A stretch of DNA of 22,153 nt, taken from IMG/VR virus record IMGVR_UViG_3300025012_000944, positions 1 to 22,153 of that record. The stretch is one strand, 5' to 3'. The position numbers and the translations under genes were made by a program. Below the pieces are notes generated by a model. The model was not told the origin of the DNA, did no database searches, and saw nothing but the letters and a program-made list of their open reading frames with translations. Position 1 is the first letter of the stretch; the number at the start of each line of letters is the position of its first letter. This DNA comes from a virus. Positions 76 through 12,090 of this stretch are shown one piece after another.

Positions 76-388
76 CACGGCCTTCGTTCTTCCGTTCGGC
101 GACCGCCGCGTCGTGGGCGGACATCCGCTCGTTCCAATTTCGCACTACCACCGCGATTGGAATCGACGAGTCAAATTCATTTAATGCACGGATTGATTCT
201 AAGACCCATTCGATGGCTTTGCGCCACTCGATGACACGGAATTCGGCAATCTCCTTCTCACATTCCCGCACGGATTGTCTGTCGGCCATATCATCACCTG
301 CCAGAAAATGGACGGCCAGTTCGCATTCCATATCCGTCGGCGTCCGGTCCATTCCCGGAATGATCCGGGGATCGGGTGTGGTCGTCAT
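65..388 (-). CDS. Hypothetical phage protein, 107 aa
   Basis: Start ATG at 388 is preceded by AGAGGACATC, a good ribosome binding site, and overlaps the stop of the upstream gene as ATGA. The protein is acidic and helical in the middle (RECEKEIAEFRVIEWRKAIE, about residues 41-60), with no signal peptide, membrane segment or recognisable motif. It ends with a TAA at 65-67. It belongs to the block of small genes downstream of the recombination module. Function unknown; real on coding organisation alone. Confidence 0.65.
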   Translation of the reverse strand: MTTTPDPRIIPGMDRTPTDMECELAVHFLAGDDMADRQSVRECEKEIAEFRVIEWRKAIEWVLESIRALNEFDSSIPIAVVVRNWNERMSAHDAAVAERKNEGRDVQ

Positions 389-630
389 GATGTCCTCTTT
401 TTCGTCTTACGTTTTGCCGTGTTCTTTCTGATCGCCTGTAATGTTCGTGGGATATCCATGAAGTTAGGGCAGTTTAGCATCAGGTTGAGATCTTGCAGCT
501 CATCACGGATGTCCATGAGGAGAGCCAGTGTAATGGTTGTCGTAGAGTATGTATGTCCGCTTGGCCCATGGCCCGGTTCACGCAGCAACCAGTCTACATT
601 TTTGTGTCGCTCGTTCATCGGGATGGTCAT
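385..630 (-). CDS. Hypothetical phage protein, 81 aa
   Basis: The frame is open further upstream, but the ATG at 630 has a near-perfect Shine-Dalgarno (GGAGGACAAA) directly before it, so I chose it. An ATG at 660 that overlaps the previous stop as ATGA is the alternative, and would add ten residues. The product has a helical middle (MDIRDELQDLNLMLNCPNF) and a very basic C-terminus ending KRKTKKRTS, which could contact nucleic acid; that is inference. No known domain recognised. Confidence 0.6.
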   Translation of the reverse strand: MTIPMNERHKNVDWLLREPGHGPSGHTYSTTTITLALLMDIRDELQDLNLMLNCPNFMDIPRTLQAIRKNTAKRKTKKRTS

Positions 631-656
631 TTTGTCCTCCGAGTAGCACTTGGGGA

Positions 657-872
657 TCATGGGACATCCAGTCTGTTCTTCAGGCCCGCTGTCCCGCCGT
701 TCGTTTCTGCGGCTGGTACTACTAACGCCTCGTCGATTTCGGCTGACATCTCGTCGTACATCGTTACAATCCAATCAGCGGACCCCAGATGATCGTCACT
801 TGCTTCGTGGACAATCCGCTGGTTCCACTCCGCCCGCCGTTCGTCGCTCATAGGTTCGCGTGGCTCGCTCAT
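657..872 (-). CDS. Hypothetical phage protein, 71 aa
   Basis: ATG at 872 overlaps the exonuclease stop as ATGA and has GGAGGTAACGCC upstream, so it is preferred over the longer open frame that starts at 935. The protein is acidic and soluble, with the segment DWIVTMYDEMSAEIDEAL probably helical. Nothing in it identifies a function. It is directly coupled to the exonuclease gene, so it may be co-expressed with the recombination proteins. Confidence 0.6.
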   Translation of the reverse strand: MSEPREPMSDERRAEWNQRIVHEASDDHLGSADWIVTMYDEMSAEIDEALVVPAAETNGGTAGLKNRLDVP

Positions 873-1537
873 GGCGTTACCTCCTGGGAGACATCGGACC
901 AACTGACTTTCTTCGGCGCTTCGGCGGGTGTGCAACCGAGCGCGATCATCTTCTCTTTAGCTTCGGCCAGTTGAGCGGTGAATGCATCGAGCGCCGCGTC
1001 TAACGCAGCGATGAACTTCTCATCTCGGTAGCACCGGACACAGACCCTGGGCATGACGGGATTGTAGCTGACAAGATCCCACCACTCGCGCCCCGTCACC
1101 AGAAGCGCCCCTTGCACCTGGCAGCGGTGATCCTCATCCATCGAACCGAGCAAATAGCCGACATGGACCTTGGCTGAGGGGTTCTTGATTTCGAGTCCGC
1201 CGTTCTCTCCTACCAACCGGTCCGGGGAGCATCCCGCAAGACGATCATCCCGCAAACAGAAGCCAACAAGATCGGTTGTGATGTCCTCTCTCATCTCGTA
1301 CCAACTGACCGCCTCATCTTCCAGCTCGGTGCCGCGTTCCATAAACTGACTGGTATAGTCATCAAGGGGGGTTCCGAGAATCCATTCGGCGATCAATTCG
1401 TGGATGTAGCCCGTAGCCGATGCCGACGGCTTCATGGTCTTCGGGGTCAGTATCCGGTGGAACTGGGAGGCGGTCGGAATTCCGATTCTCGCTTGCAGCC
1501 ATTCGGGGCTACCCTGGAGCATATCGAGCCGGATCAT
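869..1537 (-). CDS. YqaJ/lambda-exonuclease-family recombinase nuclease
   Basis: A 222-aa protein of the phage YqaJ/RecB-like nuclease family, which degrades one strand of double-stranded DNA ends to leave single-stranded tails for annealing. Visible family features: the opening QGSPEWLQARIGIPTAS (8-24), GTELEDEAV (69-77), then the metal-binding core GCSPDRLVGENGGLEIKNP (102-120), with D106, E116 and K118 as the expected D...ExK catalytic residues, followed by the conserved QVQGALLVTG (140-149). Length is normal for the family. AAGGAGG precedes ATG 1537, which overlaps the ERF gene stop as ATGA. Being coupled to an annealing protein gene is the usual arrangement of two-component phage recombination (Red/SynExo type) systems. 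Confidence 0.88.
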   Translation of the reverse strand: MIRLDMLQGSPEWLQARIGIPTASQFHRILTPKTMKPSASATGYIHELIAEWILGTPLDDYTSQFMERGTELEDEAVSWYEMREDITTDLVGFCLRDDRLAGCSPDRLVGENGGLEIKNPSAKVHVGYLLGSMDEDHRCQVQGALLVTGREWWDLVSYNPVMPRVCVRCYRDEKFIAALDAALDAFTAQLAEAKEKMIALGCTPAEAPKKVSWSDVSQEVTP

Positions 1538-2310
1538 TGAGCCTCCTTCCGGCGGCGTTTTTCTTCGAGCATCGAAATCGCCTTCCGCAGATCGGATTGC
1601 AGAATGTCTTCGACCTTTTCGACCGCCATGAATTTCAAGAACCGCAGCCGATCCGCCCCAACTTCTGTCAATAGCGATTCGAGGTTTGCGAGTTGCCCCT
1701 TATTGAGCTGGTCCGGCGGTGCGGGTGCCCCGTCCGTATCGTCTGGGGCGCACGCCGTCAGACCCAAGACCTGAATCATGGATTGACGCATTCCGTAGCT
1801 CAGCGCCGATCCAGATCTCTGTGATCCACTCAGGTCCGCCTTGGTATCCACCCCTGAAGTGAAGGATGAACTGAAGCTATGCCCGTTCGCGTGCCGCAAT
1901 GTGCAGGTGTACTCCATGTCGTCATTCTTGTCGCTGACCCTGTGGCTGTCCCATGAATATGAGATTGTCAGTTCCCGGAGAATTGGACGGACGATTTTGA
2001 TGATCTCCGGCAGTTCGGCGTACTGGTAGGAATACAGCTTGACACCGGCTTTAGTAACAGTCGCCGTCCGATTTTTTGGTATCAGGGGGCACTTGTCTTG
2101 GAACTCTGCCATTGCCACTGCGAATTCCCCCGCCGCCCGCCGCGCCTCAACTCGTTCATGGAGTTCGACCAGCTTCCCCATGACTTCAACAACGCCCGCC
2201 GCTGATTCCCCTCCCAGCTTGGAGATGGTGAGTTGCATCAGAGATGAAATCGATGGTTCCTCGTCGCGCACCATCACGGCGGTTGCGGCCTGTCCGGTGA
2301 ATGCGTTCAT
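1534..2310 (-). CDS. ERF-family single-strand annealing protein
   Basis: A 258-aa protein. The core resembles the ERF superfamily of phage annealing recombinases: VAMAEFQDKCPLIPKN followed by a lysine-rich strand, YSYQYAELPEIIKIVRPIL, then LRHANGH and a segment rich in G, S and T before SALSYGMRQSMIQVLGL, which matches the family's typical Y-AR/MR-x-LLxxLGL ending. The C-terminal tail (about 205-258) is charged, as expected for a flexible partner-binding tail. ATG 2310 overlaps the ATPase stop as ATGA and has GGAGGTGGTGG upstream; the open frame to 2370 adds an arginine/glycine-rich stretch that is simply ATPase-gene DNA read out of frame. Role: annealing complementary single strands produced by the downstream exonuclease. 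Confidence 0.85.
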   Translation of the reverse strand: MNAFTGQAATAVMVRDEEPSISSLMQLTISKLGGESAAGVVEVMGKLVELHERVEARRAAGEFAVAMAEFQDKCPLIPKNRTATVTKAGVKLYSYQYAELPEIIKIVRPILRELTISYSWDSHRVSDKNDDMEYTCTLRHANGHSFSSSFTSGVDTKADLSGSQRSGSALSYGMRQSMIQVLGLTACAPDDTDGAPAPPDQLNKGQLANLESLLTEVGADRLRFLKFMAVEKVEDILQSDLRKAISMLEEKRRRKEAQ

Positions 2311-3605
2311 GCGCCCACCACCTCCCCGTCCTCGATCACCACGGTCGCATCCGCGCGATTGCCGACGCACTCGATCCAGACTTGATACTCCTTCTCCTGC
2401 GCCATTGCCCAGACGATCCCGAGGCTCGTTTCGTCCAGAAGCGACCCGTCCGTGATTCGCACGACGCGGAGCTTGGGGTTCATCGCCATCGCCATCGCCA
2501 ACGACACCCGGAGTTGTTCGGCAGATGAGAGTTGATCGAAGAGGATGCCGTTGAACGATACGTCGCCCTCGGCAAACGAGAGTCCGTCCACCGGGAATGT
2601 TGCCGCCGCGAGCGCCGATTCCTTCATATCGTCGAGGGTCTGGATCTCGGTCGAAAGCTCATCGGCTTCGGCGGTCACGGCTCCGAGCCGCTGGACTTTC
2701 AGAGCGTAGTCCGCAGCCTTGGAAATCCTGGTATTGAGGTTATGCGCGTCCGCGATCTGCGCGTCGATGGCCGTCATGTCGGGCGTCTCCAGCGCCGCGA
2801 TTGCCTGCTTGCACCCGGAGATCCGTTCATCGGCAACCGCGAGTTGCTTTTCGTTCTCCGCGATCTGACGCTTCGCGTCTTCGATGGACACTCGGAGCAG
2901 GCCGGCGGCTTGCACCTCTGCATTAAACTCCCGGCGAATCCGCTCATTGCTGTCGATGACCGCTTGCATCCGGTTTTTGGCGGTCACCAGTGCTCCCACA
3001 TTCACCGGCGCGGTCGGCAGATCGGTCTCTGGTTCGACGACCTCCCGCAATTCCCCGGTCAGGTCCCGCTTGCGTTGGTTGACGCCCGTGCGCCGGTCGA
3101 ACGCCTCTTTGCGTTTGGCCGCGTGTGCCATCAAATTCAGGCCGATCTTCACCAGCGACAGCAGTGTTTCCAACCGTTGCGCGGGTTTCATGCGCGAGAA
3201 TTCCAGGGGATCAAATGTCAGCCGCCCGAGAAGATCATTGAGGATGGTCTGCGGTTGGTCTTGGCGGACGCCCTTACGCCGCACTTCCAGCGTGTTCCCC
3301 TTGGCGCTGATCGTTCGCGTTGCGACGAATTCGCCGAGGTCTACCGTCGCGACGGCCTTTGTCTGTCCGTGTCGGATCGGGTCCTTCGGTACGGCGTCCG
3401 CGCCCCCGAGCGCCCACATGATCGAATCGAGAACGCTGGTCTTGCCCTCACCGTTGTTGCCGGCGACAATCACCAGCGGCGCGCCCGGTTTCGGCGTGAT
3501 GTCCACCGCTTTGAGTTTCTTGACGTTCTGCGCCTGGAGGCGGACGATCCTGAATCCGCTGCCGTTCTCCGGCGGTGAATTTGCTATTGACTGATCGGTC
3601 CCCAT
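2307..3605 (-). CDS. SMC/RecN-like ATPase, ABC-type, with coiled coil
   Basis: A 432-aa protein. Walker A is GNNGEGKT (49-56), after the beta-strand FRIVRLQAQNVKKLK typical of SMC/RecF/Rad50 heads. A Q-loop region follows, then heptad-like helical stretches (about 210-335) forming a short coiled coil. The C-terminal head half has an ABC signature-like LSSAEQLRVSLAMAMAMNP (359-377) and a Walker B-like strand ending near D386, with acidic E392 just after. Much shorter than true SMC proteins (over 1000 aa), but typical for ATPases encoded beside phage recombinases. Likely role: DNA-end or recombination ATPase assisting the ERF/exonuclease pair (inference from context). ATG 3605 has GGAAGGTAATC before it. 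Confidence 0.8.
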   Translation of the reverse strand: MGTDQSIANSPPENGSGFRIVRLQAQNVKKLKAVDITPKPGAPLVIVAGNNGEGKTSVLDSIMWALGGADAVPKDPIRHGQTKAVATVDLGEFVATRTISAKGNTLEVRRKGVRQDQPQTILNDLLGRLTFDPLEFSRMKPAQRLETLLSLVKIGLNLMAHAAKRKEAFDRRTGVNQRKRDLTGELREVVEPETDLPTAPVNVGALVTAKNRMQAVIDSNERIRREFNAEVQAAGLLRVSIEDAKRQIAENEKQLAVADERISGCKQAIAALETPDMTAIDAQIADAHNLNTRISKAADYALKVQRLGAVTAEADELSTEIQTLDDMKESALAAATFPVDGLSFAEGDVSFNGILFDQLSSAEQLRVSLAMAMAMNPKLRVVRITDGSLLDETSLGIVWAMAQEKEYQVWIECVGNRADATVVIEDGEVVGA

Positions 3606-3649
3606 GATTACCTTCCTCTCGGTTGTTCTTGTGTTGAGGCGCCGGTCCC

Positions 3650-3838
3650 TTACATGGTGACTGGCGTCTCTTCTTTTTTGGATTTTTCGTCCTGGAATTG
3701 CGCGATGATGTACGCGCCAATCCCCAATGCGTCGATGGAGACGGCAACCGGGTGATCACTCGAATAGGTGCCTGCCCCGTTGTAGATGACGTAGCCATTC
3801 GACACTCGCTCGATGGTGATGACAGTCTTGTCGTTCAT
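3650..3838 (-). CDS. Hypothetical phage protein, 62 aa
   Basis: Begins MNDKTVITIERVSNGYVIYN at 3838 with AGAGGAAGAACAA upstream; an earlier in-frame methionine at 3892 lacks a good site and overlaps the neighbour. The N-terminal half alternates hydrophobic residues like a small beta hairpin and contains YVIYNGAGTYSSD; a helix (DALGIGAYIIAQFQDEKSKK) follows. This arrangement (short beta pair, then a helix) is frequent in small phage early proteins of unknown role. The gene lies just upstream of the ATPase gene. Confidence 0.6.
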   Translation of the reverse strand: MNDKTVITIERVSNGYVIYNGAGTYSSDHPVAVSIDALGIGAYIIAQFQDEKSKKEETPVTM

Positions 3839-3881
3839 TTGTTCTTCCTCTCTTGCCCCGGCGTTGTGGTCGGGGCTTCGG

Positions 3882-4082
3882 TTATCCGCCAATTCTCATC
3901 AGTCCCGGAAACCCGGTCACAACCCACCGCACGATGTGGTAGATCATGAACCCGCCGAACAACGCCGCGATCGCGCGGGGTAAATAGACCACGATGACCT
4001 GCCGAACATGCGAGCGATTCAGCCGCTCGCAACTCTGGCAGTGACAGATCGTATGATTATGCGCGAGTCTGAGCGTGGTCAT
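3882..4082 (-). CDS. Small membrane protein with His/Cys-rich N-terminus, 66 aa
   Basis: ATG 4082 overlaps the stop of the gene before it as ATGA and has AAGGAA about 8 bases upstream. Residues 8-18 read HNHTICHCQSC, a cluster of histidines and cysteines that could bind a metal. About residues 28-55 (VIVVYLPRAIAALFGGFMIY and following) form one or two hydrophobic segments, so the protein is probably membrane-anchored. No family recognised. Position among early genes hints at a host-takeover or exclusion role, but that is speculation. Confidence 0.55.
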   Translation of the reverse strand: MTTLRLAHNHTICHCQSCERLNRSHVRQVIVVYLPRAIAALFGGFMIYHIVRWVVTGFPGLMRIGG

Positions 4083-4327
4083 ACGTTTATTCCTTGTGGT
4101 TCCAACGCCATGTCGCCATCCGCCGTCCGGCGGCAGAAACCCACGGTCTCTTCGATGAGACCGCTCGCAATCAGGCGTAACCAGACGGCCTCGACGGTTG
4201 CGGGGTGGTATTTATGTCTATCTGCGGCCCCCTGCTTGACAGTCCCGGATCGCATGAATGCGGCGCGTGTCGATTCCGGGACGCACGCGAGGACCGCGCT
4301 TTCGGGTCTGGTGAGAGTTCGCATCAT
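4079..4327 (-). CDS. Hypothetical protein, possibly small winged-helix, 82 aa
   Basis: ATG 4327 overlaps the previous stop as ATGA and is preceded by GAAGG. The segment TVEAVWLRLIASGLIEETVG followed by CRRTADGDMAL has the look of a recognition helix and wing found in small phage regulators (VW..L...GLIE......RTA.G), but the similarity is loose. No membrane segment. It might bind DNA; the confidence in that role is low, while the gene itself is likely real because of the overlaps on both sides. Confidence 0.6.
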   Translation of the reverse strand: MMRTLTRPESAVLACVPESTRAAFMRSGTVKQGAADRHKYHPATVEAVWLRLIASGLIEETVGFCRRTADGDMALEPQGINV

Positions 4328-4809
4328 TCGCCTTCACTTTCTGAGCCATCGTCATCATCATCATCCGCATCGCCACCAAGCGGCAGTTGTTCCTGCATCT
4401 CGTGAGCATCCATTTTTTCAGTCTCAACAATTTCGCCCGTATCGACGCGGCTGGTGGTCTTCCAGCCATTCTTCGGCGCGTGCATTTCGGTAATGCATTC
4501 GATGTCCCGCATTTCGTAGCCCTTGTTTACGGCCTGCGAAAGCAAAGTGATGTGACTCTCGGCCGATCCGATCTTGGCCTTATAGGTGGCCTTGATGCTG
4601 TCGAGTTCAGAGTCGAGGGTCGCAACTCGCTCGATGTTCTGTGCGAGTGCCTTACTCTGGTCAACGATCTCATTCTGCTTGAAATCATAGCGTAGCCAGC
4701 GCTTGGACTTGATGATCGGCGTTTTTGTCGGCTCCTTCTTGGATTCGATGGTAATCTCGGGCATTGGCGCAACTTCCGGCTCGATTTTCGCTTCGTTCGT
4801 TTTCGGCAT
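4324..4809 (-). CDS. Uncharacterised phage coiled-coil protein with acidic tail, 161 aa
   Basis: Start MPKTNEAK at 4809 behind AGGAGG; the frame open to 5025 overlaps the neighbouring gene and has no good site. Residues 1-40 are lysine/proline/glutamate rich and likely disordered. About 45-95 form a helix (IVDQSKALAQNIERVATLDS... KIGSAESHITLLSQAV). Then comes NKGYEMRDIECITEM, a turn with PKNG, and RVDTGEIVETEKMDAHEMQ, ending in a run of six aspartates and SESEGE. A helix followed by GYE.R..C and R.DTGE.V....M is a pattern I know from frequent, uncharacterised phage proteins in recombination regions. Function unknown. Confidence 0.65.
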   Translation of the reverse strand: MPKTNEAKIEPEVAPMPEITIESKKEPTKTPIIKSKRWLRYDFKQNEIVDQSKALAQNIERVATLDSELDSIKATYKAKIGSAESHITLLSQAVNKGYEMRDIECITEMHAPKNGWKTTSRVDTGEIVETEKMDAHEMQEQLPLGGDADDDDDDGSESEGE

Positions 4810-4843
4810 AGCCCTCCTGTTTGCGGCAATAGTGCCGCGTGGA

Positions 4844-5041
4844 TTACTTCGGGTCGATTGGCTGCATGTGCTCCTGCGCCACCGTGACCAGAGCCTTGAT
4901 GCGCGTTGAGATCTGCGAGTAGGTGGAGCAGACGGCTCCGCTGGTAGCGATGATCGCCTTGTCGAGGTTGTAATCGACGACCTGGCAGATGATTCGGAAT
5001 CCGCCAGTCTCAGCCGACACTTCAATTTCGAGTTGCCTCAT
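4844..5041 (-). CDS. Hypothetical phage protein, 65 aa
   Basis: Starts MRQLEIEVSAETGGFRIICQ at 5041 behind AAAGGAGG, which decides against the longer frame from 5089. Predicted as a small alpha/beta fold: beta strands at the N-terminus, then the helix ISTRIKALVTVAQEHMQ. No known motif. It is followed 35 bases later by the acidic coiled-coil gene. Function unknown. Confidence 0.6.
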   Translation of the reverse strand: MRQLEIEVSAETGGFRIICQVVDYNLDKAIIATSGAVCSTYSQISTRIKALVTVAQEHMQPIDPK

Positions 5042-5150
5042 CCATCCTCCTTTTCGATTCCCCGGCAAGCGGGGCAGATTCGGTGTCATTTGCTATCGCC
5101 GGTTCCTACGGCTCCCCGCCCGCCGGGTTGTTTGTCGTCAGTACGCTATC

Positions 5151-5306
5151 CTATGCGGTGACTTCGCCCGCGACCGCTGGCGCTTGTTGCCGGGGGCTCA
5201 ACTCCGGCGATTTGATCCTGATGGCCTTTGGCACACGGCCCACCGATGATCCAAGCGTGATTGTGTCCGGTGGCATACCCTCCATCTTAGGGTTCAGGTT
5301 ATTCAT
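5151..5306 (-). CDS. Possible small protein, 51 aa
   Basis: Open frame starting MNNLNPKMEGMPPDTITLGS and ending in TAG at 5151-5153. Its ATG overlaps, as ATGA, a TGA at 5303-5305 that closes the frame of the preceding gene's possible extension, the same junction type used across this operon. The site before it (GTGGGGGC) is weak. The protein is proline-rich and shows no domain. It fills an otherwise unexplained 300-base space between two clear genes. Plausible, not certain; plus-strand frames here look like shadows. Confidence 0.4.
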   Translation of the reverse strand: MNNLNPKMEGMPPDTITLGSSVGRVPKAIRIKSPELSPRQQAPAVAGEVTA

Positions 5307-5362
5307 GCAAGCCCCCACTTTGCCATGATCTGGAGGATTTCTGCCACGTCAGGCTTCAGGGG
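5303..5362 (-). other. In-frame 19-codon extension after TGA of the 63-aa gene
   Basis: After the TGA at 5363-5365 the same frame stays open for 19 codons (PLKPDVAEILQIMAKWGLA) to a second TGA at 5303-5305, which overlaps the next ATG as ATGA. The encoded sequence looks like a normal helix. It may be stop readthrough, a point nonsense change or sequencing error in a gene once ending at 5303, or a tiny GTG-started frame (GTG at 5347). Confidence 0.35.
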
Positions 5363-5554
5363 TCAGAGATAGATGTCTGCGCCCAGTTCCTCCAGTTTGG
5401 CGACGAGTTCTGGCTGAGTCGTGAGGTACTCGTGGAGAGCTATCGTTCGTTCCAGCAGCACGCTCCGCACTGCAATTTCCTCGGTGAATTGTTCGATAAT
5501 AGATTTCTTCTTAATTGGCCCGACTGGCTCGGTGGGAACCGCATTCTCATTCAT
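5363..5554 (-). CDS. Hypothetical phage protein, 63 aa
   Basis: ATG 5554 has AGAAGGAGACATC upstream. The protein has a proline-containing N-terminus (MNENAVPTEPVGPIKKK) and a long helix, IIEQFTEEIAVRSVLLER... ELVAKLEELGADIYL. It is the first gene after the tRNA and hairpin region, so it opens the early gene block proper. Function unknown. The TGA stop is followed by an in-frame extension described separately. Confidence 0.6.
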   Translation of the reverse strand: MNENAVPTEPVGPIKKKSIIEQFTEEIAVRSVLLERTIALHEYLTTQPELVAKLEELGADIYL

Positions 5555-5607
5555 GATGTCTCCTTCTGGTTAGGGTTGTATCCGTTGTTTCCGCTGAATT
5601 CCTGGGG

Positions 5608-5671
5608 GCCGGGCGCACCAGTGCGGGCGCGCCCGGCTGGACCATCGCATGTGCGCTACCCGGAGTAGCGC
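5608..5671 (-). other. Two strong hairpins between tRNA and first early gene
   Basis: In the leftward transcript, GCGCTAC/GTAGCGC (5653-5671, 7 bp, 5-base loop) is followed by GCCGGGCGC/GCGCCCGGC (5608-5637, 9 bp, 12-base loop). No U-run follows either, so they are not classical terminators. They lie between the tRNA 3' end and the Shine-Dalgarno of the 63-aa gene. They could stop exonuclease decay, mark processing, or regulate translation; the role is unknown. Confidence 0.55.
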
Positions 5672-5689
5672 TGCGAAGGACGAAAACTG

Positions 5690-5762
5690 AACCCCCGGTG
5701 GGAATCGAACCCGCTGCCATCGGCTTAGAAAGCCGCTGCTCTTCCATGTGAGCTCCGGGGGT
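5690..5762 (-). tRNA. tRNA-Arg, anticodon UCU
   Basis: Reading leftward: acceptor ACCCCCG pairs fully with CGGGGGT; D stem GCTC/GAGC with an 8-base loop; anticodon stem 4 bp plus a G-A mismatch at the outer pair, around loop TTTCTAA, giving anticodon TCT (reads AGA); variable region TGGCA; T arm GCGGG-TTCGATT-CCCAC with one C-A mismatch. Position 8 is G rather than the usual U and no CCA is encoded. It is a phage-type tRNA, about 73 bases, in the same direction as the flanking genes, so it is probably cut from the leftward transcript. A partly decayed or divergent tRNA is possible because of the mismatches. Confidence 0.85.
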
Positions 5763-5771
5763 GTTTTGGGA

Positions 5772-5803
5772 CGCGGGGAAAAGGAGGGGCCTCAAACCCC
5801 GCG
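5772..5803 (-). other. Hairpin upstream of the tRNA
   Basis: CGCGGGG at 5797-5803 (minus-strand reading) can pair with CCCCGCG at 5772-5778 across an 18-base loop, just before the 5' end of the tRNA. No U-run follows, so it is not an obvious terminator. It may help processing of the tRNA. The interval 5763-5854 otherwise shows no gene. Confidence 0.35.
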
Positions 5804-5854
5804 CCCGTTCGGCCGCAGTGAAAACGCAGGAATCCACGCAGCCTAAAGTATTGA

Positions 5855-6097
5855 TCACCACAGATCCTTTTCTTTGACGTCCAATCCCATCGACCGCAGC
5901 CCCGCGAGAATCGCGTCTTTTTGCTCCGCGGTCGGCTCTTGACCCTTGGCGATTGCGTAGAGTGTGCCATGACTCATGTTGCTGGCAACAGCAACATCAC
6001 GCCAGAGAATGCGTCTCCAATTTGGCATCGTGTGGGTTCGCAACCATGCCCACAATTTCGATGGGGCCTCGATTTCATGTTCATGGTGTTTTGGCAT
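5855..6097 (-). CDS. Helix-turn-helix DNA-binding protein, 80 aa
   Basis: The segment WRDVAVASNMSHGTLYAIAK (about 33-52) fits a lambda Cro/XRE-like helix-turn-helix: an alanine-containing first helix, a turn around NMS, and a recognition helix GTLYAIAKG. It is followed by EPTAEQKDAILAGLRSMGLD, a helix typical of such small repressors. The N-terminus is histidine-rich (MPKHHEHEIE). ATG 6097 has AAGGAG and GAGGAC upstream and sits about 18 bases downstream of the predicted transcription start. It is the first gene behind the minus-strand promoter, and a dyad lies inside that promoter, so it probably controls its own promoter and the early genes. Whether it acts as repressor or activator cannot be told. 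Confidence 0.75.
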   Translation of the reverse strand: MPKHHEHEIEAPSKLWAWLRTHTMPNWRRILWRDVAVASNMSHGTLYAIAKGQEPTAEQKDAILAGLRSMGLDVKEKDLW

Positions 6098-6121
6098 GTG
6101 TCCTCATTCTCCTTGTCGTCA

Positions 6122-6150
6122 TTTATACGAGTGTCTATACACGTGTGCAA
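6122..6150 (-). promoter_or_regulatory. Sigma70-type promoter for leftward early genes
   Basis: On the minus strand TTGCAC (6150-6145) and TATAAA (6127-6122) are 17 bases apart, optimal spacing and close to consensus. The expected transcript start is near 6115, giving a short leader with AAGGAG before the helix-turn-helix gene at 6097. It probably drives that gene, the tRNA and the recombination block. Confidence 0.65.
6131..6142. promoter_or_regulatory. Possible operator dyad in promoter spacer
   Basis: GTGTCTATACAC has GTGT/ACAC half-sites around a 4-base centre and lies between the -35 and -10 boxes, with a second palindrome ACACGTGT (6139-6146) overlapping it. This is a classic place for a repressor to block polymerase. 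The likely binder is the helix-turn-helix protein encoded just downstream; not proven. Confidence 0.4.
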
Positions 6151-6230
6151 GGAAAATCTTCACCCCGTCTGAAAATAAATCCGGCCGGCATCCGGCAATC
6201 CGGCACGCGGGTTGCTATGCGAAATAAAGC

Positions 6231-6259
6231 TTGACCGCTGGTGGGCCTCGACTTAGATT
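6231..6259 (+). promoter_or_regulatory. Promoter-like sequence facing right
   Basis: TTGACC (6231-6236) and TAGATT (6254-6259) are separated by exactly 17 bases on the plus strand, matching 5 of 6 and 4 of 6 consensus positions. It is divergent to the leftward promoter 80 bases away. No plus-strand gene follows; a hairpin with a U-rich tail does. Confidence 0.45.
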
Positions 6260-6265
6260 CAAAGA

Positions 6266-6341
6266 GAATCGCCCTCCTATCCCTTTTGGCGGTGTTGATT
6301 CAGTTTTCGGACGGTCCAGTTACAGCTGGGCCGTTCTCTTT
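6266..6341 (+). ncRNA. Candidate small RNA between rightward promoter and terminator
   Basis: If the rightward promoter is used, a transcript of about 75 bases would start near 6266 and end at the hairpin with UCUUU tail at 6337-6341. It contains no credible reading frame with a ribosome binding site. It could be a regulatory RNA, or simply a short transcript stopped before it runs antisense into the late genes. Evidence is the promoter and terminator only. Confidence 0.35.
6309..6341 (+). terminator. Intrinsic terminator-like hairpin, plus strand
   Basis: GGACGGTCCAG (6309-6319) pairs with CTGGGCCGTTC (6326-6336) around the loop TTACAG, followed by TCTTT. In plus-strand RNA all eleven positions pair, two of them G-U; in minus-strand RNA the same two would be C-A mismatches. 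That asymmetry suggests the structure acts on the plus strand. Confidence 0.5.
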
Positions 6342-6354
6342 GCAGAATGACATC

Positions 6355-6372
6355 TGGGGGGCAGGACTCGAA
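6355..6372 (-). other. tRNA 3'-end-like segment, possible attachment core
   Basis: Directly after the lysozyme-like gene's stop, the minus strand reads TTCGAGTCCTGCCCCCCA, which looks like a tRNA T-loop followed by a T-stem half and an acceptor strand. The rest of a tRNA is absent: the preceding bases do not pair as a T stem. Such fragments occur at phage attachment sites within host tRNA genes. No integrase is visible, so this could be chance. Confidence 0.25.
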
Positions 6373-6846
6373 TCAGACATCAATATGGGTTTCCCATGGC
6401 AGCCCATACCGCTTCCAGTCGAGCATGAACTGTTGCCGCCGGGCTTCGACACCGCTACAATTGTAGTGCTCAAACCAGTACGCGGCCATATCCTCCAGAT
6501 CGGTCGGATCGGGAAGTGGCGGGGGAGCAACGTAATATCGCAGCCGCGCCACCAGAATCGACAAGTCCAGGTCCCACTCCAATTGATCAGCCGTTACTCC
6601 CAGCAATCGCGGGAACTGGTCCTCGTATTTCCCCCGCAGCCATTCGAAGGTCGGCGGTTCAATCTGAAAGATCCCAAGCGCTGGGCCATTAACTTGCCGC
6701 AGAAATGTGCCGAATCCGCTCTCATGGGCCGCTGTGCCTAACAGCAAGACAACCGCCGAATCAGAGTACAGCGGCAAACCGCTGGCCGCGTGATGCTGAA
6801 GGCGCCGTCTCAGCAAGTCGTCGAACTGGCGCAGATCGTAGCTCAT
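6373..6846 (-). CDS. Lysozyme-like transglycosylase (phage)
   Basis: A 157-aa protein. LLLGTAAHESGFGTFLRQ (34-51) with E42 as likely catalytic glutamate, then GPALGIFQIEPPTFEWLRG (54-72), VARLRYYVAP (99-108) and AAYWFEHYN (121-129), make the lysozyme-like fold pattern E..., G.xGIFQ, and a late helix with Y/W-x-x-x-YN. This matches a common phage virion or endolysin transglycosylase family that cleaves the glycan strands of peptidoglycan. No signal peptide or membrane segment, so it acts in the virion or needs a holin. ATG 6846 overlaps the previous stop as ATGA; the frame open to 6894 just extends into the neighbour. It is the last gene of the late string. Confidence 0.75.
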   Translation of the reverse strand: MSYDLRQFDDLLRRRLQHHAASGLPLYSDSAVVLLLGTAAHESGFGTFLRQVNGPALGIFQIEPPTFEWLRGKYEDQFPRLLGVTADQLEWDLDLSILVARLRYYVAPPPLPDPTDLEDMAAYWFEHYNCSGVEARRQQFMLDWKRYGLPWETHIDV

Positions 6847-6980
6847 TTGTGTTTTTTCCGGGTGACCGGGTTTTTGGAATGTTTTGCGTTCCAAATCTTC
6901 GCGGCCTTTGTCTTGGCAGCGTCTTCACTCATTCCTTTTTCAATAAAGGCATCTCTCATTCGCTCGTATCCCTTTGGCAT
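6843..6980 (-). CDS. Small conserved phage protein, 45 aa
   Basis: Starts MPKGYERMRDAFIEKGMSED at 6980 behind AGGAGGCGCA and ends with ATGA at the lysozyme start. It continues with KTKAAKIWNAKHSKNP and ends in basic residues (VTRKKHK). The pattern MPKGYERMRD..F...GMS...AKTKAAKIWNA..P is one I recognise from many phage genomes as a small protein of unknown function. The preceding gene's stop codon overlaps its Shine-Dalgarno. Confidence 0.7.
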   Translation of the reverse strand: MPKGYERMRDAFIEKGMSEDAAKTKAAKIWNAKHSKNPVTRKKHK

Positions 6981-6988
6981 TGCGCCTC

Positions 6989-9283
6989 CTATGGAAGCAG
7001 ACTTAACAGTGTTGTTGTTGCTCCGTTAGCCGGGACAAATATCTGCTGGTACGTGACCGGCTGAACCAGGTTCGAGTGTTCGATCTTGATATCGTAACTT
7101 GTTGTCGATCCGACGCCTCCAACATACAATGAATCGTTGCCGTAAATTGACGCTTCCCACAAACCCGATGAATTAGCCCTCGCAACAATCCGGCCCGGCA
7201 CAATGGCGGTTGTGCTGGTATACGCTCCCATGCTTCCTACTAACGTAATGGTGACTGTGGCATAAGGCAGGGTATTGCCTCCAGCATCCCGCGGTGTGTC
7301 GTAAAGTGTCGTCTTCTGCGTGCCGGGAGATGTTGCACCCGGAACAAGATCGTAACCAGGAATCGAATCCATCCCAGCAGTTGCCCCGGCAGACGTCGTA
7401 AAGGTACGCAGTGGGAAAAGATAGCCGCCGTAGTCGGCAAGCGCCTTGTACGTGGTGGAAGCATCTGTGTTGAAAATCGCATACCCGGAGGCATTTGTTG
7501 TCAGAATAAAAGGGCTGGTCAGCGTCATCGCACTATTTTGAAGCGTGATCTTTGCCCCGGAAATTCGTGTGTCAGCTCCAGACGTATCGACGACATAAAG
7601 ACTTTCCGGTTTGTCGCCCGTTCCCGCAGATGATCCGCCCGGATTGGCAATGTAACGCAGAGTGGCCGCCACAGAATCAGAACCATTGCCCGCCGCAATG
7701 CCCCACGCTTTGCGGCCAATAATCCGGCTGGTAGTCGCTGAATCCAGCCCCGTTCCCGATGGGCTTGTGATGACTGAATCAACATGACGCACATACAACA
7801 CCGTGTCATCGGGTTTGATGTTGACGCTGTTGGCTGTGCCCGCGACTGCCACATAGAGCACGGTATCCACATGCCGGACGTAGAGGACCGTGTCGTCGGC
7901 TTTGACTCCTACGTCATTGGTGACACTCGTTGTCGTCGTGGCCAGCGTAACCAGACTGACCGTGTCAGCGGCTTTGATGTTGGCCAGATACACCGAGTCT
8001 GCCGTCCGTTTATAGAGCACGCCCCCCTGAATGTACTTGCCGGATGTGCTGTCCCATACCCAGCGCCGGATCATCAGCGAGTCGATGCTGGAAGCGCTCC
8101 CAGTCGAAGCCCATGTCTGTGTGTCGAGTGAATCATGCAGTTCGCGGAGAGCACCGCCAACAGTCGTGTCCGGTAGAGACGCATTAGCCGAATGTTTCGC
8201 CAGAGAATCAGCAGCCACCCCGTAGGCGGCATCCGAAAGAGAGTATCCTGTTTTCGCCGTGACGCTCGCCACCGATCCGTTCACATTGCCCAGGACAGTC
8301 GTAATCGTGTCGGTCGAGGCGATGTTGTTGACATTGAGAACTACCGCGATTGTGTCCGGGGATTTAACTCCCACGTCATTCGTCACTGATCCCACCGATC
8401 CGGACAGATTCCCCGTGATATTCCCCGTCATGTTGAACGTTTGAGAAGCGGCAAGCGTTTTCGCCGTCCCGGAATCCGCACGAATAGCGATCATCTTTTT
8501 AGCGTCATTGGCAAATGTGGCGGAGTCGATTGCGGCATCAGCAATTGAAGCACTAGTGATCGCCCCCGTTTGAAACGATGAGGACTGAATCGCATTAGAA
8601 CCCACATAATTAACTTGCGCCACCGTCCCAGCAATGTTCCCCTTCACGTAGGCAGAATCATTGTTGGTCACATAGGTAGGATTGTTAAGGGAATCACCCA
8701 TCGAACCAGCGGTAAAGGCCGCGCCGAATGATGTTCCCCACGTCTTGTTGGCGGCGCTGGCCGAGGCGTTTGCGCTGTCAGAAGCAGCCCACCGGCTGCT
8801 GACCGCCGCGTCCAGCCGGGCCAGGGCCGTATTCAGTAATGTGTCCAGCACCTGGAACGTGCCCCGGATTCCAAAGGGCGGGTTGCTGAGCTTCAACGAT
8901 GAATCACGGGCGACCACGATGTAACTGTAATTCCCCATGCGCCCTATGCCGTCGATGTTGGAAATCTGGTCAGTGTAACTCGCGGCAATGACAGACCCGT
9001 ACCGCCGCACCAGATCAACCTTGCCGCCTTCGCTTGATACGTCCAGCGCGAAGTTGTCGCTGTAACAAGAATCGCCGTTCGGGTAGTGGATGATAATGTA
9101 GGCGGAGTCCAAAGTCGTGTCGATGGCTACCGTGTTATACCCCGCCGAGTCCCACAGTTGAATGATAATCGGCAGCAGACTGTCCGCCGGAGTCAAACCT
9201 GTTGTGGCATTCCGGACAATTTGCGCCCGCGCACTTCCCGCCACGCACAGCGCCACCGCCAGCAACACCAGAATCCGCTTCAT
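6989..9283 (-). CDS. Large secreted repeat protein, fibre- or surface-like, 764 aa
   Basis: MKRILVLLAVALCVAGSARA is a clean Sec signal peptide with likely cleavage at ARA|Q. ATG 9283 overlaps the previous stop as ATGA with GGGGGATAC upstream; an in-frame ATG at 9295 would add four residues. The mature protein is rich in S, T, D and A and beta-prone. It contains repeated motifs NDVGVK..DT and DDTVLYVRHVD (about 452-502, with a diverged copy near 297-309) and stretches like GAITSASIADAAIDSATFA. Two Ig- or carboxypeptidase-regulatory-like segments are near the C-terminus (ITLQNSAMTLTSPFILTTNA, then TVTITLVGSMGAYTST). Function unknown; possibly exported adhesive or shielding protein, or a fibre domain. 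A phage-encoded protein of this type with a signal peptide is unusual. Confidence 0.7.
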   Translation of the reverse strand: MKRILVLLAVALCVAGSARAQIVRNATTGLTPADSLLPIIIQLWDSAGYNTVAIDTTLDSAYIIIHYPNGDSCYSDNFALDVSSEGGKVDLVRRYGSVIAASYTDQISNIDGIGRMGNYSYIVVARDSSLKLSNPPFGIRGTFQVLDTLLNTALARLDAAVSSRWAASDSANASASAANKTWGTSFGAAFTAGSMGDSLNNPTYVTNNDSAYVKGNIAGTVAQVNYVGSNAIQSSSFQTGAITSASIADAAIDSATFANDAKKMIAIRADSGTAKTLAASQTFNMTGNITGNLSGSVGSVTNDVGVKSPDTIAVVLNVNNIASTDTITTVLGNVNGSVASVTAKTGYSLSDAAYGVAADSLAKHSANASLPDTTVGGALRELHDSLDTQTWASTGSASSIDSLMIRRWVWDSTSGKYIQGGVLYKRTADSVYLANIKAADTVSLVTLATTTTSVTNDVGVKADDTVLYVRHVDTVLYVAVAGTANSVNIKPDDTVLYVRHVDSVITSPSGTGLDSATTSRIIGRKAWGIAAGNGSDSVAATLRYIANPGGSSAGTGDKPESLYVVDTSGADTRISGAKITLQNSAMTLTSPFILTTNASGYAIFNTDASTTYKALADYGGYLFPLRTFTTSAGATAGMDSIPGYDLVPGATSPGTQKTTLYDTPRDAGGNTLPYATVTITLVGSMGAYTSTTAIVPGRIVARANSSGLWEASIYGNDSLYVGGVGSTTSYDIKIEHSNLVQPVTYQQIFVPANGATTTLLSLLP
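7779..7928 (-). repeat. Internal repeats coding DDTVLYVRHVD motifs
   Basis: Within the 764-aa gene the protein motif DDTVLYVRHVDTV and its near copy DDTVLYVRHVDSV are 28 residues apart. NDVGVK precedes the first copy, and a related NDVGVKSPDTI occurs near 8355-8392. The DNA copies differ at many third positions, so they are old, selected repeats rather than recent duplications. Confidence 0.6.
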
Positions 9284-11220
9284 TGTATCCCCCATGCAAT
9301 TCTGACCGAATCGGTCTTGCTGCTGGGCACATCTGCGTAGCGTCCACCCTCCACGATGATTGTGCGATACTCCACAGAATCTGCCGATCCAACCTGCTGT
9401 CTCCGCCGCCTGCCAGAAACGGCGGCCCCCCCTGCCGGTATATGATAGATTGCAAAAACAGAGTTTCGGCGGTACCCGGCAGTTGCCGGCCATGATGGTG
9501 ATGATGGCCAAGACCCGTATGTGTGAGTAACTCCCGACGCACTGTCCGTATCTGCGAGTCCAGTGGTCGCATAAATCCAATACGAGTTGACTCCCGACGC
9601 CTGAATACAGATCGCGTACCACGTGCCTGCCGTGATGCTGGCATTCAGGTACGATGCCGTGATTTTCCGCGTGTGGGTTGTTGTGCCATGGGTGAAGCGG
9701 GGAGCCGAATCAATCGCCGCCGTGCCTCGCCACGGATAAATCGCACAGGCAAACGTCTGGGTGGCGTCAGCTAACACCCACGCACCAATGCTGTCCACCA
9801 CACCGCTGTATTCAGGCGTGAATCGTGAGGCATCCATACGCTCCAGCAAACTGTAGACATTGGCCGCATCGCCATCGTATCCGAATGTGACTGGCTCGCC
9901 GGCATTCACCGTATAGAAACAGTAAATCAGCCACCAGTCCTTTGCACCGACAAAAGTGCCTGTCAGCGCCGGACACGCCGATGTATATGTGTCGCCAATA
10001 TCCGACATTGATGAATCGGCCACGCTTGCGCCCTTATTGAGACTGACTGTTCCTCCGGTGACATTACCCCATATATTGAGCCAGTAATTCGTGCCCGCTG
10101 TAACAGCGGCGCTCATCCCCGTGAAGGTGTACCAGGTGTCATTGACCCCGAAAGGGATCAGTTTTTCCGTCGCGCATCCGCCCGTGACCAGTGTCCATGC
10201 CCCCCAATTGCGCAATGAGGGAGTGACGTTATGATCCGCAATGCCGCAGTCCAGCATCGCGGCCATGCTGTCCACCGTTCCCGATGTTGGCGGACTGGCC
10301 TTTATTCCGTAGGGAACACCTTCAATGTTCGCACCACCTGAAACGGTTCCGGTATCGTGCCCGAATTTTACATCGTGATACAAAGAGCCGGGAGGCAGAG
10401 CCGCCGTTTGCGCCGGGCTGAACGCCTCAAAGAAAAACGGATTGCCGCCGATCAGCGCCACGCGCTTCCAGACAGGAATCGCCGTCACTGTGTCCGCCAT
10501 GGTGATGATGGACGGTGGCAACACCCAGATGCGCTCATTGCCGCTACGAAGATCGAACCAGCCCGATGTCATGCGGCCGCTAGCTGTCTGTGTAAATTCT
10601 CCCTGCCGGTCGCGCCATGCCGCCACTCCGAGCGAATCGGCGTCAATGCGATGCACGGTCGCAAGCAGCCGGTTGGCCCAAGGCGTCAGTTTGGCGAGCG
10701 AATCACGCGCCGCCTGCGTGAACTCCCATTCCAGTTTGCTCAGCTGGAGAATCTTCGGATTGTTGCGCGCCCGCAGGTTGGCGCCGTAGAAAATCCCCCA
10801 AAATGTCACGACGTTACCGGCTGCCGTCACGCTGTCGGGATCGGCAGCCGCCAGGACGTTGTAGCTGGAGTCCAGCGTGTTGAACTTGACCAGCTGAGGC
10901 GGTCTGATGCCGAGCCAGTGCATGTCGCGGCGCACATAAAAGGCTCCCGTGGAATCGGTGTAAACGGCGTCCCGGCCATTGTCCGACCGCCATACTTTTG
11001 ACTGGCCGGCCAGCACCCATTCGTCCTTGTAGGATGACCACCTGCCGTCAGGGTTCTGGTAATTGAGGACCGGCGCCCCCATTGGTCCGAATGCCTGATG
11101 AATCTTGCTGGTCGCCGAGTCATACCAGGATGCGGCTCCGGTCGGAACCGGGGCAGCCCATGCCGCCCCGCTGTATAACAGCAGAGCGGCCACCACGCAA
11201 AACCTCAGAAGTTTATTCAT
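9280..11220 (-). CDS. Large secreted beta-rich protein, 646 aa
   Basis: ATG 11220 gives MNKLLRFCVVAALLLYSGAA followed by WAAPVPTG, a Sec signal peptide with probable cleavage at AWA|A. GGAG lies 5-6 bases before the ATG. The gene overlaps the stop of the upstream gene by 8 bases. The mature part has many W, Y and D-S pairs. Residues about 315-440 and 474-600 look like two copies of one beta-sandwich: each opens with SGxVDSxxA and later has A-A/S-V/I-TAGT-x-Y (TAGTNYWLNIW and TAGTWYAICIQ). A basic RRRRQQVG patch lies near 610. No known enzyme motif recognised. Candidate exported surface or receptor-binding protein. Confidence 0.65.
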   Translation of the reverse strand: MNKLLRFCVVAALLLYSGAAWAAPVPTGAASWYDSATSKIHQAFGPMGAPVLNYQNPDGRWSSYKDEWVLAGQSKVWRSDNGRDAVYTDSTGAFYVRRDMHWLGIRPPQLVKFNTLDSSYNVLAAADPDSVTAAGNVVTFWGIFYGANLRARNNPKILQLSKLEWEFTQAARDSLAKLTPWANRLLATVHRIDADSLGVAAWRDRQGEFTQTASGRMTSGWFDLRSGNERIWVLPPSIITMADTVTAIPVWKRVALIGGNPFFFEAFSPAQTAALPPGSLYHDVKFGHDTGTVSGGANIEGVPYGIKASPPTSGTVDSMAAMLDCGIADHNVTPSLRNWGAWTLVTGGCATEKLIPFGVNDTWYTFTGMSAAVTAGTNYWLNIWGNVTGGTVSLNKGASVADSSMSDIGDTYTSACPALTGTFVGAKDWWLIYCFYTVNAGEPVTFGYDGDAANVYSLLERMDASRFTPEYSGVVDSIGAWVLADATQTFACAIYPWRGTAAIDSAPRFTHGTTTHTRKITASYLNASITAGTWYAICIQASGVNSYWIYATTGLADTDSASGVTHTYGSWPSSPSWPATAGYRRNSVFAIYHIPAGGAAVSGRRRRQQVGSADSVEYRTIIVEGGRYADVPSSKTDSVRIAWGIQ

Positions 11221-11545
11221 CACAACTCCACACCGTGTCGAAAACGCGAAAGTCGGGGATCACGACTGGTATTGGCATCGGAGGAGCTTCTGTCGTGTCG
11301 ATTCTGACGATATGCCCCCTGTTTAGAGGGATCGTGTGGAGATACCACTGCTGCCTCAGTTTCATCCTGTCTTGAATTGCCACACAAGAATCGGCCGGCA
11401 CTACGTAGTCGCTTTTCCATTCTGTCCTTCTGATGGAATCTGCCACGAGGTAAGACGTTGACACACGATTGGTTATTGATGTCGTATCAACGCCCAGCGA
11501 CATCAGCACTGCCATGACAATTGCGCGAATAGAGTCTGGAGTCAT
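11213..11545 (-). CDS. Hypothetical protein, 110 aa
   Basis: ATG 11545 overlaps the previous stop as ATGA, with GGGGAG 7 bases upstream; the frame open to 11578 lies inside the preceding gene. Residues 1-20 (MTPDSIRAIVMAVLMSLGVD) contain a hydrophobic helix but lack the basic start of a signal peptide. The centre (DYVVPADSCVAIQDRMKLRQ) is mixed, and the C-terminus is rich in proline (APPMPIPVVIPDF). It lies between two genes for exported proteins. Function unknown. Confidence 0.6.
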   Translation of the reverse strand: MTPDSIRAIVMAVLMSLGVDTTSITNRVSTSYLVADSIRRTEWKSDYVVPADSCVAIQDRMKLRQQWYLHTIPLNRGHIVRIDTTEAPPMPIPVVIPDFRVFDTVWSCDE

Positions 11546-12090
11546 GGATGACTCCCCGGCCAGAGCTTGCCCAGCCATTCATCGCAGTAGAGCGCAAATC
11601 CCAGCCCCACGCCTGCCGACTCGATCTTCCCCGGCTCGTTCTGAAAGACCTTGGCGCCGAGGAACACCATCGACTGATCCGAGATGTGCAAATTCGCCGC
11701 AACCCCGGTAATCAGCCCCCAGTCCTTGTCGCCAGCATCCCCAGCGGCGATCTTGTTCGCGCCGCCGACTTCATAGATCATGTCCAGCCGGTCCCAGCCC
11801 AGGATATTGTGCTCGATCCACAGCCCGGACAAGCCGAATGATGCTGGCGGCTGTCCTTCGATCCTGAGCGCCCGCGCCAGAACGGCCACGTGCGCCGATC
11901 CGATCCTGAGTATCCGGTAGGACACCCCGGCGTCCAGCCAGAGATCCCCAGCGTGCGGCCCCCGGACGATGGTAATCACCGTCGAGTTGACAGCAATCTT
12001 TGACTCCTCCGCCGGAACCGGCGTGTAGTACTGCGCCAGCGCCAGTGAGGGCAACAGGCACAGAATGAGAATTGCACCAATTCGTTTCAT
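11542..12090 (-). CDS. Secreted protein, possibly small outer-membrane barrel, 182 aa
   Basis: MKRIGAILILCLLPSLALAQ is a signal peptide, cleaved near LALA|Q. AGGAGG precedes ATG 12090, which overlaps the metalloprotease-like gene stop as ATGA. The mature part alternates hydrophobic and polar residues in several strands (AGDLWLDAGVSYRILRIG, GLITGVAANLHISDQSMVFL, GKIESAGVGLGFALYCDEWL), as in small outer-membrane beta barrels or beta-sandwiches. No family recognised. The phage context makes an outer-membrane or periplasmic role during infection possible. Confidence 0.6.
   Translation of the reverse strand: MKRIGAILILCLLPSLALAQYYTPVPAEESKIAVNSTVITIVRGPHAGDLWLDAGVSYRILRIGSAHVAVLARALRIEGQPPASFGLSGLWIEHNILGWDRLDMIYEVGGANKIAAGDAGDKDWGLITGVAANLHISDQSMVFLGAKVFQNEPGKIESAGVGLGFALYCDEWLGKLWPGSHP

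Follow-up and report, generated by a model that had tools for sequence, protein, structure and literature searches.

The small RNAs OOP of phage lambda and sar of phage P22 are transcribed against neighbouring genes. With lengths of 77 nt for OOP and 68/69 nt for sar, as given in passages of PMC12197685, they are similar in size to the RNA predicted here. For phage PAK_P4, the same passages report an RNA that is antisense to the endolysin gene. Excerpts of PMC4933390 describe two RNAs of phage PAK_P3, sRNA1 and sRNA2, which are intergenic, about 100 nt long and expressed late; the sRNA1 region measures 200 bp. In sX13 and in RNAs of S. aureus, as described in parts of PMC3771888, UCCC or other C-rich loops pair with G-rich start regions.

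Here, we analyzed the junction between the late and early genes of an uncultured phage, where a plus-strand promoter-like pair is followed by two predicted hairpins. Judging from the DNA itself, the best single reading, which we hold tentatively and with somewhat less than even confidence, is that the junction encodes a phage small RNA of about 76–78 nt on the plus strand.

The phage and its late–early junction

The window, that is, the DNA analyzed, is the whole 22,153-base virus record IMGVR_UViG_3300025012_000944. The record closest to it is IMGVR_UViG_3300025314_000044 (41,323 bases), with a match of 99.5% across 18,269 bases. The first 140 bases of this 41-kb record are repeated by its last 140 at 98.6%, and contig L015 spans its end and its start; because of the end repeat and the bridging contig, the phage genome is read as closed, with a length of about 41.2 kb. 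The gene content (terminase, portal, helicase, RecE-like, Erf) is that of a tailed phage. All window genes in our own gene set lie on the minus strand. In the 41-kb record, clamp-loader-like and ArdC-like anti-restriction genes (L014 3686-5070, minus) oppose the terminase and portal genes, so the genome is not one-stranded overall. A tyrosine integrase was not found in the five records of this phage that were searched, which include fragments (the control was positive in 14 of 14 cases); the record of one distant contig, L010, carries such a gene.

Two nearly identical phages are told apart by a swapped module with RecE, Erf and AAA genes (121-3884 in the window, compared with L005, L006 and L019). 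Between 3885 and 11400, the window differs from the 41-kb record at 29 positions, all clustered at 3888-4017, the edge of this module. By eye, three proteins of the late region (9280-11223, 11542-12090 and a gene starting at about 9283, minus strand) have Sec signal peptide-like starts, e.g. MKRIGAILILCLLPSLALAQ, which are unusual among phage virion-region proteins. These proteins had no family match; the query for the third began at 9229, without that stretch.

The 275-nt junction separates an endolysin-like gene, the last late gene, from a regulator-like gene, the first early gene, both on the minus strand. The former is called endolysin-like because it belongs to PHROG 3108 and because, in a listing of 30 of its 140 homologues, six are annotated as endolysin or lytic transglycosylase, at identities of no more than 41%; it had no match in PDB, Pfam or NCBIfam. 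Its start overlaps, in an ATGA, a 45-aa gene (MPKGYERMRDAFIEKGM..., 6843-6980, minus), for which there were weak PHROG and NCBIfam matches only. A single-sequence model of the regulator-like protein is all helix (mean pLDDT 75.7). Among the 50 of its 190 fold matches that were listed, XRE/lambda-repressor-like and LacI-family DNA-binding proteins predominate (best E 0.43). By sequence, the protein matched no family at E 0.01; there were weak TetR-repressor matches only (E 0.33 or worse), and the best PHROG match had an E of 0.2. Going by the modeled fold, this 80-aa protein is likely a regulator. Between the two hexamers of its promoter-like site lies an imperfect palindrome, GTGTCTATACAC (6131-6142, 10 of 12 positions), a possible operator. 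The regulator-like gene is followed by a tRNA-Arg (5689-5762). After this tRNA lies the most stable contiguous hairpin in the window (5608-5637, minus, −27.5 kcal/mol), without a U-tract.

Other candidates at the junction were considered and rejected. An open frame on the plus strand (6241-6741) has no visible ribosome site and no Pfam match and is mostly antisense to the endolysin-like gene. After the AGGAGG at 6271-6276 on the minus strand, the only codons to start from are ATT, 3 bases on, and TTG, 10 bases on, and no gene was placed there. A stretch after the endolysin-like gene that by eye resembled a tRNA 3' end was dropped as an integration site, its T-stem being unpaired.

Two other contigs that share the junction were found and are identical to the window there (the two of them over 6200-6400, L003 also over 6090-6420), and a comparison of paired substitutions therefore yields nothing for either strand. 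Viral contigs were searched with five proteins (endolysin-like, internal-virion, terminase, portal and regulator) and with two hairpin patterns; all hits were contigs of this same phage. The AAA protein brought up a contig of the same phage plus five more distant ones (L007-L011), which share little besides AAA (gene 4079 in L010, and a weak match to gene 9280 in L008, E 0.004) and from which the junction genes are absent. In the genome collection, the terminase gave five pattern matches with no relative among them, and a 20-base loop pattern gave no match. Among phage records, the internal-virion protein had no match and the portal protein two weak ones; the junction itself matched nothing in the phage records. 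A plasmid search returned 17 records, all through query positions 152-225 only, i.e., the tRNA. In Rfam, no family reached its gathering score at the junction, and in the window only the tRNA (there at 5690-5762) did; the RsaE model (RF01820) scored 21.8 bits (E 0.5) against a cut-off of 79 bits. A literature search on convergent phage terminators gave no match.

Promoter-like pair and predicted hairpins

The features of the junction and its surroundings are collected in Table 1. The promoter-like hexamers, TTGACC (6231-6236) and TAGATT (6254-6259), are present with the 17-nt spacing given in the initial annotation of this DNA. The site diverges, as had also been noted, from a regulator promoter-like site on the minus strand (6150-6122), which is itself only an 8/12 match. 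The start of the RNA was assumed to be G6266, from the usual six-base spacing after the −10 box, and this base is also where the 5' hairpin, P2, begins. An RNA from G6266 to 6341 would be 76 nt long, in agreement with the transcript of about 75 bases proposed earlier. In P2, the bases of the loop UAUCCCUUUU (6278-6287) are predicted to be mostly unpaired. The stem of the second hairpin, P3, starts 50 nt past the end of the −10 box, the distance originally described; the UCUUU of that description follows at 6337-6341, and its two G-U pairs correspond to an alternative drawing of P3 with 11 pairs, two of them G-U, and a 6-nt loop. P3 was present in 16 of 16 folds tried with different ends and P2 in part of them: P2 refolds in transcripts running from 6231 to 6341 or 6345, and from 6241 to 6341.

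Table 1. Positions of the junction, its flanking genes and the elements of the predicted RNA.
Feature	Position	Strand	Description
Noncoding junction	6098..6372	none	275 nt, longest gap in the window (our gene set)
Endolysin-like gene	6373..6846	minus	PHROG 3108, family of unknown function
Regulator-like protein, 80 aa	5855..6097	minus	predicted all-helix
Regulator promoter-like site	6122..6150	minus	TTGCAC-17-TATAAA, 8/12 consensus matches
Sigma-70-type promoter-like pair	6231..6259	plus	TTGACC-17-TAGATT, 9/12 matches
5' hairpin (P2)	6266..6301	plus	fold −8.6 kcal/mol alone; begins at assumed start G6266
Linker	6302..6308	plus	AGUUUUC, single-stranded in the fold
Terminator-like hairpin (P3)	6309..6336	plus	12 pairs, 3 G-U, loop UACA, −19.3 kcal/mol
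U-rich tail	6337..6342	plus	UCUUUG, short; poor for an intrinsic terminator
9-base perfect inverted repeat	6260..6342	none	CAAAGAGAA (6260-6268) / TTCTCTTTG (6334-6342), flanks the hairpins

A layout of a 5' hairpin, a linker and a strong hairpin is common among bacterial small RNAs, and a 5' hairpin that starts at G6266 and carries the UAUCCCUUUU loop is in keeping with a small RNA of two hairpins and about 76 nt. What the sequence gives is the elements, the distances between them and a predicted fold; from these we infer how such an RNA would be made, where it would start and end, and what it might target. Transcription by host RNA polymerase would begin at G6266; the transcript would form the 5' hairpin, displaying the pyrimidine-rich loop, and then a short U-rich linker; transcription would stop at the hairpin 6309-6336; and the RNA would act in trans, its loop pairing with purine-rich sites close to where translation of phage or host messengers begins.

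The stop is a weak point of this anatomy. A terminator scan omits P3, whose stem has −19.3 kcal/mol and whose tail UCUUUG fails the scan's U-tract rule, and the terminator score of P3 ranged from −9.7 to +15.2 depending on the variant of the formula. P3 could also be a terminator and nothing else, which would halt plus-strand transcripts of any start before they reach the endolysin-like gene and leave an RNA without a task. Its location ahead of the 3' end of that minus-strand gene at 6373 and its clearly higher stability on the plus strand would suit this role. However, the U-tract is weak and, as the genes that we placed in the window are all on the minus strand, no plus-strand unit there needs a stop, the two opposite genes of the 41-kb record being far off; we consider this explanation quite improbable.

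Besides a small RNA, the initial annotation had suggested an early-terminated antisense transcript that protects the late genes. The anatomy is compatible with a small plus-strand RNA, and the joint arrangement of promoter and hairpin is rare in shuffled sequence (see below), but protection of the late genes is unsupported as it was put: since the predicted RNA stops at about 6341, 32 nt short of where the late gene ends (6373), it is antisense to no placed gene. It would be antisense only to a possible 3' untranslated region of the late messenger, and protection would require read-through. Such read-through is the substance of a related explanation, in which a weak stop lets some plus-strand transcripts enter the endolysin-like gene and delay its expression. 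The weak tail and a promoter aimed at the 3' end of this gene point in that direction, and the antisense RNA over the PAK_P4 endolysin gene, as reported in the passages of PMC12197685, offers a precedent; as a strong hairpin stands in the way, we give it a slim chance.

Fold strength, strand bias and the role of chance

The bases of P3 fold to −19.3 kcal/mol on the plus strand and to −10.8 kcal/mol on the minus strand, which bears out the plus-strand preference that was first noticed. This asymmetry comes from the G-U pairs and alone is no evidence of selection. The G-U argument by itself is weak, since hairpins with G-U pairs that are picked for their stability as RNA always lose those pairs on the opposite strand. 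When the whole 275-nt gap was folded, the plus strand had a z of −3.65 (0 of 200 shuffles as good) and the minus strand a z of −1.47 (14 of 200). A 90-nt window from 6271 gave z −3.03 on plus and +0.11 on minus, and the neighbouring one from 6241 gave +1.48 on plus. The 90-nt window from 6271 ranks 13th among 736 plus-strand windows, 12 having a better z; fold strength at the junction, compared across the whole window, is not exceptional.

Over 6255-6350 the two strands are closer to each other, with z values of −2.77 (plus) and −2.27 (minus), and for each of them 4 of 200 shuffles were as good. The minus-strand fold uses the outer 9-base repeat, which could close a larger three-way fold in longer transcripts of either strand and of which six of the nine bases of the 5' arm lie upstream of the assumed start. 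The repeat might close a structure near the late messenger's 3' end or act at the level of the DNA, and the minus-strand fold does beat its shuffles. The plus strand nevertheless folds better (−33.6 compared with −27.4), and a 9-base repeat of this kind is expected about 6 times per 22 kb and about 0.07 times in the gap, assuming equal base use and about 70 spacings. A minus-strand or DNA element therefore seems to us a very slim prospect.

The main rival to a small RNA is chance: a weak promoter match may happen to stand beside a chance hairpin in the spacer between late and early genes, with no RNA made. Promoter-like sites of this kind occur at chance density (4 found in 4000-9000 on both strands, 2.9 expected); the poor U-tract and the rank of the fold among the plus-strand windows also fit. 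P3 is third by energy among the 99 contiguous stems of at least 8 pairs in the window. Of the top eight stems by stability, six sit within genes that we placed, so that strong stems can arise without a task as terminator or RNA. When one strand of the whole window was shuffled 60 times, 8 of the shuffles held a stem as stable as P3 (mean 0.22 per 22 kb); since these shuffles span the entire 22 kb, a stem of this strength is improbable in any given 275-nt gap.

The joint arrangement was defined as a promoter and a T-tailed hairpin with 40–130 nt from the assumed start to the end of the hairpin. In 400 one-strand shuffles, it occurred in none at −19 kcal/mol or better and in one at −15 kcal/mol; at looser cut-offs, its frequency rose to 1.25% (−12 kcal/mol) and 2.75% (−10 kcal/mol). 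Seven further stretches of phage DNA (91,028 nt in total, two of the stretches from this same phage) held no instance on either strand. These figures overstate the rarity, because the thresholds were set after the case had been seen and the tail rule was lenient (5 T in 8 bases, with the count allowed to start up to 3 bases within the stem). The promoter-plus-hairpin arrangement is real and somewhat unlikely, and we regard chance as an unlikely, if serious, explanation for it.

In favor of a small RNA are thus the rare joint arrangement, the third-strongest stem in the longest gap, the plus-biased fold and a start that is the first base of P2. Against it are the chance-level promoter, the poor tail, the refolding of P2, the lack of an Rfam family and, as described below, a paired CUCC and pyrimidine tracts that are common. 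The predicted ends, 6266 and 6337-6343, are precise enough for testing. If true, a checked case at the late–early junction of an environmental phage would extend the known phage RNAs; if the RNA is not made, the locus would caution against calling promoter-plus-hairpin pairs small RNAs.

Candidate targets and comparison with known RNAs

Among the 26 start regions listed, some of which are alternative starts of one gene, Erf had the strongest pairing, at −12.8 kcal/mol; the start region of the regulator paired at −8.5 kcal/mol. On the coding strand, 12 or more of the 14 loop bases are matched at eight non-self sites when G-U is counted. One site, 6963-6976, in the first codons of the 45-aa gene, matches 12 of 14 loop bases, 9 of them consecutive, and 60 of 2204 windows pair equally well or better. 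Pairing of the loop with start sites is not discriminating, and no target is claimed. The CUCC that adjoins the loop resembles an anti-ribosome-site motif, and three of its four bases are mostly paired. Counting this one, the plus strand has 19 similar pyrimidine tracts and the minus strand has 4; those on the plus strand are probably the reverse of purine-rich stretches in the coding strand. A more specific proposal, that the loop of an RNA made at the late–early junction pairs with purine-rich start sites of phage or host and so times a switch from late to early (or host) translation, is in our judgment very improbable.

The predicted RNA resembles OOP and sar in being short and phage-encoded. 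It differs in that OOP and sar pair with the cII and ant messengers, whereas the predicted RNA covers no placed gene: complementarity of the OOP/sar type is missing, as 6266-6341 overlaps none of the minus-strand genes that we drew in the window. As for sar, a complement may be encoded in trans. With sRNA1 and sRNA2 of PAK_P3, as far as the excerpts describe them, it shares a place in an intergenic gap; those RNAs of a virulent phage were seen by RNA sequencing, whereas the one here is predicted only. In shape, it is like the C-rich-loop RNAs in the parts of the literature cited above (sX13, the S. aureus RNAs with UCCC loops, and RsaE), in that a stem-loop would expose UCCC in a pyrimidine loop. 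By the same parts, sX13 has three C-rich loops, compared with one in the predicted RNA, which also falls below the cut-off of the RsaE model (21.8 compared with 79 bits). By this analysis, the predicted RNA belongs to no tested family and would work, if at all, like the known phage RNAs and C-rich-loop RNAs.
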